Source: Utricularia gibba (taxonomy: Eukaryota; Streptophyta; Magnoliopsida; Lamiales; Lentibulariaceae). From it: a DNA stretch of 64,000 nucleotides. Under the pieces are notes generated by a model. The model made no database searches, had not been told where the DNA came from, and saw nothing but the letters and a program-made list of their open reading frames with translations. The first letter of the stretch is position 1; the number at the start of each line of letters is the position of its first letter. The translations under genes were made by a program, and so were the position numbers. Where the stretch lies: the NCBI GenBank assembly GCA_002189035.1, contig CM007990.1, positions 62,001 through 126,000 of the forward strand. The letters are read 5' to 3'. Positions 44,409-50,806 of the stretch are shown here, piece by piece.

Positions 44409-47176
<2,768 letters not shown>

Positions 47177-47669: not shown

Positions 47670-49400
47670 TTACCATTTACTTCCAGCAGAATGCTTAGCC
47701 TTGTTGTGAGATTCAAGGGCTTTATCAGAGTTAAAGTTCCTGTGCCACACCAAATCAGCGTCGATATTGTTTCCAATACTGAATTCAAGTTCATAATCAT
47801 GTTACAAACCTTTTGCAGCTATTGCAGGTGTGAGCGCCAGCAGATTTCTGTCCCACTTGATCCGGCTTTTCACCGGGTGCTTTTTTACCAGTTTGCTTTG
47901 CTGGATGAGGAGTGGCTACATGCACACCTGCTTTTTTGCTATCTGAAGGATACCACAAAGCTCGCCTGAGTTCTTAGTAGACGTAACACATTGAGAATGG
48001 ATGCCGTAGATGACTCTACACAGGCCAAAGAAAAAACATTACCAGTTTTCTGAGGAGTGACCAGCTTTGCCTTCTTACCCTGAACAGGGGTTTTTGAAGC
48101 TGGTTCTGCAGCTCGCTTCTTGCTAGGCACCACCTTCTTTGGTGTCTCTTCATCACTTTCACTGGAGTCCTCGTCATCATTCTAAAAGTAAATGAGAATT
48201 AGCAATCTCAAAGTTTTCTGTACGCTCAAAACAAAACAGGTTTTTCCATTTAAGGAATACCATCATGAGCAGAACCACGAACACTATGTTTCATGCAATA
48301 CCTCATCGTCATCATCGTCCTCTGACATTGAATCGCCATCACTAATCTCATCGCCCACCTTCGAGTTTCCACTTTTCTTGTCTTTGAGAGAATTCGCTTT
48401 TCCAGTTCCCAACGACTCCTGTGGCGTAGGTTTCAAAGCGGGTTTCCCTGAATGCAATTTATAATCTCAACTCAGCATGAATCATTTGAAAAGGCATTTA
48501 TGTAACAGACATACCATTATCAGCAACAACGTTTGGTTTATCATCCTCGGAGTCTGAGTCAGATTCATCTGAAAGGAATAAAAGAAATAAACTAACAAGG
48601 CATGAAGGTAAAGTAACAGGACATAAAATGTAGGAAAACACGAAGTGGTATAATACCAGTGTCTCCTTCAGGGAACTCGGTGATCACGGAAGGGAACAGG
48701 GTGAAGGAAAATAAAAAACCTCAACATGACAAGAATGTGAATGTACAGAAACTAAAGAATTTCACGGCGCAAAGGATATTCATCATCAAGTATGTTGTCA
48801 GCTATGTAACCATAAAAGTACACGCTTCCACTCTTCCAGTTGTGAGAGATCTCGAAATCCCTGTCAAATACTAAGTCAAACTGTTGCTGCGGCAGTTTAT
48901 CTGCGAACAGGGTTCCTAGGCCTAATTTCGATCCGTCAACATTAACAGACAGGTAGACCGATTCACCACTTTTCTCCTTCTTCACCTCACCAAGACACGC
49001 CTGAATATAAATAGCATAACAAGCTCTATTATATAACAAGCACTAATTTTAAACAACGTTACTTCATAAATAGTGATTTTTTTAACCTGGGAAAGATGCA
49101 AAACCCTTCCAAAACCTGGCGTCACCTTGAGAGGCTCTCCACTTTTCACCTCAACACCTGAAACAAAGAAAAAAAATGCTTAGAATGAATACATACCACA
49201 AGGCTGCCGCGCTCAGGAATTTATTCGAAATCAAGCAACACCGATAATGTGAAGAAAACACAAATGCTGATTAATGCAGGCGACTTGCAGATGAAGCTTA
49301 AAAATCGTATAAATCAGAAAACGCAATGAAAGACGATTCATGGCTACAGGATAAAACAAACAAAACAAAAAAGAGAGAGAAGCGAACCCCAGAACTCCAT
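47670..49400 (-). CDS. HD2-type (plant-specific) histone deacetylase
   Basis: Nine exons join in phase to 261 aa: 49400-49388, 49157-49087, 49000-48780, 48679-48657, 48568-48515, 48447-48302, 48181-48043, 47942-47810 and 47739-47670. The N-terminus MEFWGVEVKSGEPLKVTPG, then the FDRDFEISHNWKSGSVYFYGY block, are diagnostic of HD2 (HDT1-4). A strongly acidic middle (DESDSDSEDD, SEDDDDDE, NDDEDSSESDEE) and a Lys-rich part follow. The end is a C2H2 finger (CNSCKRNFNSDKALESHNKAKH, spacing C-x2-C-x12-H-x4-H). HD2 proteins are nucleolar, nucleoplasmin-like repressors linked to histone deacetylation and rRNA gene silencing. The third intron appears to be of the minor AT-AC class; only that junction joins exon 3 and exon 4 in frame. 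Confidence 0.92.
48680..48779 (-). other. Probable U12-type AT-AC intron in the HD2 gene
   Basis: Between exons 3 and 4 of the HD2 gene the minus strand has no usable GT donor that keeps the frame. It does have ATATCCTTT at 48779-48771, the exact 5' splice consensus of U12 AT-AC introns. The 100-nt intron ends in AC at 48681-48680, and TTCCTTCAC, close to the U12 branch consensus TTCCTTRAC, lies about 22 nt before the end. Joining gives DDDEFPEGDTDESDS, a natural acidic HD2 sequence. Confidence 0.75.
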
Positions 49401-50806
49401 CGAAGCTGAGCACGATTGACAGTGAGCGAGCGGCGAGATGTAAGAAGGCGTGTAGGGCTTTAGGATTTATAGAAGTAAGGTTTTAGCGCCGATTACCTTG
49501 TTGGGCCTGATGACAATGCCAGCTTTTAATATCCATTTAAAGGTGTTAGGCCCAACAGCTGAAACAAATTTAGAAAAAGGGATGGGGAAACCTTGTTTGT
49601 TTTTAATGGTGGACCTGATTTGCCCCTACCGTACGCCGAGTCTAGGAGCCAGACTTGGTTGAGCCCGGGCCCGGGGCGGGGCAGGGCAGACCACCAGGAA
49701 AAGGTGGTCCAGGCATGCTTTAATTACTTTTTACCCTCCTAATCCCGCTGCATTTGCATTTGCATTTGCATTTGCATTTGCATTTGCATCTGCATTTGCA
49801 TTTGCTTGCACACGGTGCCCCCATCTCATCCTCTGCGCTCCATTGAAACTAGTTGGCAATGGCAGGAGCGTGGCTGCTCGCTGCTCGCTGCTTTGGAGTG
49901 CGCGCAAGTGTCGTAGGATCGGGGCATCGACCCAGAGAATGTAGAGATCCAACTACAATCATTGCAGAAGACAAGGAAGCGTCATCATCATCCCTCCCAA
50001 TCCCCATTCTGTGGTACTCGTTGCTGCCTTGGCAAGATTGATGATTGTGGCAAGGCACACTATCCGCAGCAGCGCTCTAAGGAACAAGGCATCGGCAGAG
50101 CAGTGAGCAGTCCCACCATCGCAAATGGGAAATGGTGCACTGCGCTGCGCTGCGCCCCTCTTTCCTCTCTCCCGTCGTCGTCCTGGATTTGGTGTGAGCG
50201 GAGACATCCCCCGACACATTCTGTAACAAAATCCTGAGCCCTTTATACGCAACATCACATCCTGTTCGAGTAATGCTCAAGTCAAGGGCCCCCTCACTCC
50301 CGATTCCTGCACTGTGGAGTGTGCTGCTGCTGTGTCTCGCGCACATACATAACTTAGCTCCCTCGTAATACATTTAATACATAAGTGCTACCACACGGCG
50401 TTGTAACGGGGCAAATCTATCATCTCTTCTTGAGTCATCACCACAGGCACAGGCACAGGACGGCGGTAAGTAGCGTCACAAAGCAAAAAGTAAAGGCAAG
50501 AATAACGGAATCGGGTCAAACATCACAAGGTAACTGCTTCGGTGCACTACACTAACGGCCTCCCCTGAATCCTTAAATGCATGTATTCATGAGTCGTGAT
50601 TTTCTGTTAGAACCAACTCGCAGTCGCTGCTCCCCTCTTCTTCTTCCGCCTCCCCGTTTTCGCTTTCGGTTACAAACCAGGGAAACGCCGAGGCTTCCGA
50701 CATGTTTCGCCGATGAAGCCAAACATCGATAGCGAGCAAACCGCAAATCTCATCTACCCTTTGTCCATCTTCTCTTCCTCGCTCTGTTTCTGACCTCGAT
50801 TCCGCA
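49401..50806. promoter_or_regulatory. Divergent HD2/DUF868 intergenic region
   Basis: No gene is supported in 1.4 kb. TGGGCC and GGCCCA elements at about 49500-49555 lie upstream of HD2. A hexamer repeat is at 49749-49805. Short Ala/Asn repeat frames come only from that repeat. Confidence 0.5.
49749..49805. repeat. (TGCATT)n hexamer tandem repeat
   Basis: About nine and a half TGCATT units, with one TGCATC variant, form a 57-bp tract in non-coding DNA. Each junction creates ATTTGCAT, an octamer-like element. Confidence 0.95.

Follow-up and report, generated by a model that had tools for sequence, protein, structure and literature searches.

The window, a 64,000-nt stretch of the Utricularia gibba genome, carries on its minus strand (49400–47670) the coding part of a gene for an HD2-type (plant nucleoplasmin-like) histone deacetylase. 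When its nine exons are joined, the frame stays intact over 290 codons including the stop, and the resulting 289 residues read MEFWGVEVKSGEPLKVTPGFG...GSVYFYGYIADNILDDDEFPEGDTDESDSDSEDDKPN...CNSCKRNFNSDKALESHNKAKHSAGSKW*. The protein starts with MEFWG and a nucleoplasmin-like (NPL) domain. Residues 3–94 match PF17800 in a profile search (E = 2.2e-16), and the NPL chains of HDT1/2/3/4 in the PDB are matched with E = 1.6e-28 to 9.7e-17. Arabidopsis HDT1 is the best of these (E = 1.6e-28), followed among the solved structures by the NPL domains of HDT3, HDT2 and HDT4, and then by FKBP43 and FKBP53. The middle region of the translation is acidic, and the C-terminus holds a C2H2 finger with its Cys and His pairs present (PF13912, E = 1.8e-4, slightly below the curated cut-off). 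The identification as HD2 in a preliminary description of this DNA is borne out, as the NPL match, the closing C2H2 finger and the HDT NPL domains as best structures all place the gene in this family. The assignment is one of family membership, and deacetylase activity is predicted.

The exon borders follow from the spliced frame and, in part, from paralogous genes. Exon 1 (49388–49400) encodes MEFWG and is followed by a phase 1 intron; paralogues have the same first exon and donor. Exon 2 (49087–49157) ends in ...LHLSQ with phase 0. Exon 3 (48780–49000), supported by both frame and paralogues, contributes the remainder of the NPL domain and ends in GATGATGA. Exon 4 (48657–48679) is a micro-exon of 23 nt that begins with CGAGTTCCC at 48679 and encodes (D)EFPEGDT(D). 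It is separated by intron 4, a U2-type GT-AG intron (48569–48656), from exon 5 (48515–48568) in the acidic region. Apart from the intron between exons 3 and 4, all introns of the gene are GT-AG.

Upstream of the gene, two TGGGCC/GGCCCA (site II-like) elements are found at 49554 and 49507, about 110–150 bases before the start codon; such elements are common in plant growth and ribosome-related genes. A tandem AAATGC hexamer repeat is located at 49745–49795. On the plus strand, the convergent neighbour at 45500–47100 appears to code for enolase, as judged by eye from its protein letters.

The intron between exons 3 and 4

The third intron spans 100 nt (48680–48779, minus strand) in phase 2. Its 5' splice site ATATCCTTT (48771–48779) matches RTATCCTTT at nine of nine positions, its branch site TTCCTTCAC (48701–48709) matches TTCCTTRAY at eight of nine, with C at position 7, and its TCAC end provides the 3' splice site AC (48680–48681). 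The preliminary description had reported an exact U12 AT-AC 5' splice site, a terminal AC and, without coordinates, a branch-like element, and all three were recovered. Its further statement that the AT-AC join gives an acidic stretch typical of HD2 holds as well: removal of the intron restores ...ILDDDEFPEGDTDESDSD, and the 48780/48679 junction yields ILDDDEFPEGDTDESDSDSEDD within the intact 290-codon frame. Phase 2 fits the tendency of minor introns to avoid phase 0 (PMC10639083). Retention of the intron, on the other hand, leads translation into an in-frame TAG at 48752–48754 (...DDEYPLRREIL*).

The intron thus shares with U12-type AT-AC introns the 5' splice site ATATCCTTT, the TTCCTTNAC branch element, the AC end, a phase other than 0, and the situation of one minor intron among major ones. 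It departs from them in the C at branch position 7 and in spacing. The distance from the branch A to the intron end is 22 nt in the window gene and 24 nt in both HD2 paralogues (see below), compared to an optimum of 11–13 nt for U12 introns (PMC3584512), which suggests that splicing is possibly inefficient. A nearer branch candidate, TTCCGTGAT (8/9), was rejected: its A is positioned four nt before the intron end, which leaves too little distance to the 3' splice site. Likewise, AC at 48701 or 48659 is unsuitable as a 3' end, cutting within the branch element or leaving a 2-nt exon, respectively.

Related genes in the genome

The preliminary description had called for a comparison with HD2 orthologues; the genes compared here are paralogues, all within this one plant genome (a 100-Mb assembly of 516 contigs). 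PF17800 is matched seven times, by seven distinct NPL genes or remnants of such genes. Two of these, L004 (C451; exons joined across 5911222–5911312) and L005 (C304; across 2493985–2494086), are HD2 genes whose AT-AC intron agrees with that of the window gene in codon and phase. In both, the exon end GAAGATGA is followed by an intron of the form ATATCCTTT...TTCCTTGAC...TCAC, and the next exon starts with TGAGTT. Their 5' splice site is identical to that of the window gene, and their branch site TTCCTTGAC reaches 9/9 to TTCCTTRAY. The TCAC end, the 23-nt length of exon 4 and a stop inside the retained intron are common to all three HD2 genes, and GATGAATATCCTTT is invariant among them while the intron bodies align poorly. 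The window gene differs from L004 and L005 by a dN of 0.20–0.26 at saturated dS; between the latter two, dN is 0.06 and dS 0.63. The presence of the same intron in the sister genes indicates that it is real and old. A diverged HD2-like gene with a MEFWG start (L007, C412:2314343–2314690) ends soon past the NPL domain. Inspection of L007 for U12 signals revealed none, and a phase 0 GT-AG join fits; its short form resembles the predicted intron-retention product of the other HD2 genes.

A whole-genome search with the pattern ATATCCTTT-N50-80-TTCCTTNAC-N8-28-CAC gave five matches in 100 Mb, compared to zero matches in 100 Mb for the reversed control; this combination of AT-AC signals exceeds chance. 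Two of the five are copies of one Bud20/ZNF593-like gene; the other three are the HD2 genes, matched at the same codon. The HD2 introns were already known when the pattern was drawn up, so the HD2 matches are not independent evidence, but the empty control and the additional, genuine-looking gene are. The latter (L019/L020, C414:3151066–3151155 and C415:5068–5157) has a 95-nt AT-AC intron whose in-frame join leads to a small zinc-finger protein (PF12171) that, by our reading, looks like a member of the Bud20/ZNF593 family. It shares with HD2 the composite signal, the TTCCTTGAC branch and the in-frame AT-AC join, and being unrelated to HD2, it serves as an independent positive for the genome-wide pattern. 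Its intron sequence recurs on a contig of 50 kb, which may be a haplotype copy.

A related intron is found in FKBP53-like genes. In two of them, L001 (C255) and L003 (C1), a GT-AG intron with U12 signals lies just past the NPL domain, with GTATCCTTC/GTATCCTTT at the 5' end and TTCTTTAAC 17–19 nt before the end. Like the HD2 intron, that of L001 is in phase 2. L003 is a pseudogene with in-frame stops inside the domain; its boundary sequence matches that of L001. In a third gene, L002 (C451), the GT-AG intron is likewise in phase 2; its signals (GTATGCCTTT) are degenerate, and it may have been converted to the U2 type. FKBP53-like and HD2 genes further have in common the end of the first exon at FWG and the following NPL exon after SQ (phase 0), so that the two introns preceding the one past the NPL domain are the same. 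Differences from HD2 in L001 and L003 concern the GT-AG subtype and the branch sequence TTCTTTAAC.

The simplest reading is that a single U12 intron in a common ancestor gave rise to the third intron of both families and that a switch between the AT-AC and GT-AG subtypes followed. As the FKBP53-like U12-type intron has the same phase and follows the same domain, the HD2 intron probably predates the HD2/FKBP53 split. Homology of the two is likely rather than proven, because the linker lengths differ. Alternatively, U12 introns could have arisen independently near the same domain border, which would make the intron of HD2 specific to that family. The different subtypes speak for such a scenario, as does the domain-to-intron linker, which differs by several residues and makes the alignment uncertain there. 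It is countered by a common series of three introns: intron 1 after FWG, intron 2 after SQ in phase 0, and an intron 3 of the U12 type in phase 2. Moreover, very few introns are of the U12 type, and two independent ones at a single border are therefore unlikely. The difference in subtype carries less weight in view of the subtype switches documented for U12 introns in other genes (PMC2831892). In sum, we consider independent origins improbable and favour the single ancestral intron.

Alternative joins and splicing machinery

All GT-AG, GC-AG, AT-AG and AT-AC pairs between exons 3 and 4 were enumerated, and skipping of exon 4 was considered as well. An open frame into exon 5 is kept by nine of 36 GT-AG pairs, six GC-AG, seven AT-AC and 17 AT-AG pairs. 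The preliminary description had held that no GT-AG pair joins exons 3 and 4 in frame; given nine such pairs in frame and without a stop, this has to be withdrawn. On paper, the counts leave room for an ordinary U2-type GT-AG intron elsewhere (e.g. 48765–48666), with the AT-AC signals present by chance. One example, GTGAAATT...CTGAAG, would give ...DDEYPLRRDTDESD. However, the in-frame GT-AG joins use weak sites and lose conserved residues or gain non-conserved ones, without support from the paralogues. Their acceptors (CCTGAAG, AAGGAG, GTTGAG and CACCGAG) lie inside conserved exon 4 or have no pyrimidine tract, and no counterpart was seen in L004 or L005. Exon 4 and both intron ends, in contrast, are conserved in three genes despite saturated synonymous sites, and the composite AT-AC signal has a near-zero chance rate. 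We regard a GT-AG intron at this place as very improbable. Some of the GT-AG, GC-AG and AT-AG joins keep an open frame, yet the conserved DDDEFPEGD results from none of them, nor from exon-4 skipping. Removal of the AT-AC intron by the major spliceosome (AT-AC class I, U2-type) is less probable still: U2-dependent AT-AC introns exist, according to the passage of PMC6310983 that cites them, but have U2-like 5' sites, whereas the HD2 site is U12-type at 9/9 and the U12 branch element scores 8/9 in the window gene and 9/9 in both paralogues.

The genome also encodes components of a minor spliceosome. Genes for U12, U6atac and U11 snRNA score above the Rfam cut-off (86, 87 and 74 bits, respectively). 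U4atac, sought twice in the genome, gave sub-threshold matches only, from which absence does not follow. U6atac contains AAAGGAGAGA, which pairs with the 5' splice site, its AAAGGA pairing fully with UCCUUU. U12 contains GTAAGGAA, which pairs with the branch site; in the window gene seven of eight pairs form with GUAAGGAA. The missing pair is due to the C at branch position 7; the paralogues have G-U there. In addition, a Dim1-family gene on C451 is a TXNL4B/DROL1 orthologue by sequence comparison (103.6 bits to human TXNL4B vs. 39.8 to TXNL4A). The partner of human TXNL4B, CENATAC, is needed for AT-AN introns (PMC8280824), and DROL1, the plant TXNL4B orthologue, is required for AT-AC introns in Arabidopsis, as stated where PMC11039992 cites Suzuki et al. 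2022 (10.1111/tpj.15582). The DROL1-requiring introns resemble the HD2 intron in subtype, plant host and the presence of a TXNL4B/DROL1 orthologue in the genome; for the HD2 intron, DROL1 dependence is predicted.

Taken together, the evidence strongly favours removal by the minor spliceosome over any other explanation, and nearly all testable sequence features agree with it. The 100-nt phase 2 intron is most likely a genuine U12-type AT-AC intron, excised by the minor spliceosome and ancestral to the three HD2 genes, a reading to which we assign a probability of about 0.96. The U12 type proposed in the preliminary description is thereby upheld as a prediction from sequence, drawing on the signals, the AC end, phase 2, two AT-AC paralogues and the minor snRNA genes.

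Predicted consequences for HD2 expression

In the proposed mechanism, U11 and then U6atac would pair with UAUCCUUU at the 5' splice site, and U12 would pair with UUCCUUCAC, leaving the branch A bulged, while the AT-AN-specific TXNL4B/DROL1 factor would assist removal. Correct excision would join the 23-nt micro-exon, so that translation could continue past the NPL domain through the acidic tail, the basic region and the zinc finger. An unremoved intron would end translation at the TAG at 48754, and full-length HD2 would hence depend on the minor spliceosome. A common U12 intron is the probable source of both this intron and the GT-AG one past the NPL domain of FKBP53-like genes. Both splicing at 48780/48679 and its limiting effect on HD2 output are what we infer.

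A broader scenario, tentative and on present evidence rather unlikely, is that one ancestral U12 intron at the border between NPL domain and acidic tail was kept through the subtype switch in HD2 and FKBP53-type genes, and that the activity of the minor spliceosome (DROL1-type in the case of HD2) gates the supply of this whole group of nucleoplasmin-like chromatin proteins in their full-length form. If so, transcripts that keep the intron would specify a protein consisting of the NPL domain alone.

Introns of this kind are already known, and published work on plants describes AT-AC introns served by a dedicated factor. Among the papers searched, none joins HD2 and U12 introns, and none treats FKBP53 and U12. 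The DROL1 study in Arabidopsis is said to include a link to HD2B. Gene finders that accept only GT-AG introns will annotate HD2 genes incorrectly. The present data indicate that three full-length HD2 genes are predicted to depend on the minor spliceosome via one conserved AT-AC intron, which is suggested to be older than the HD2 family itself. Plant minor-splicing mutants (e.g. drol1 or U11-48K) are thereby linked, in a testable manner, to chromatin regulation.
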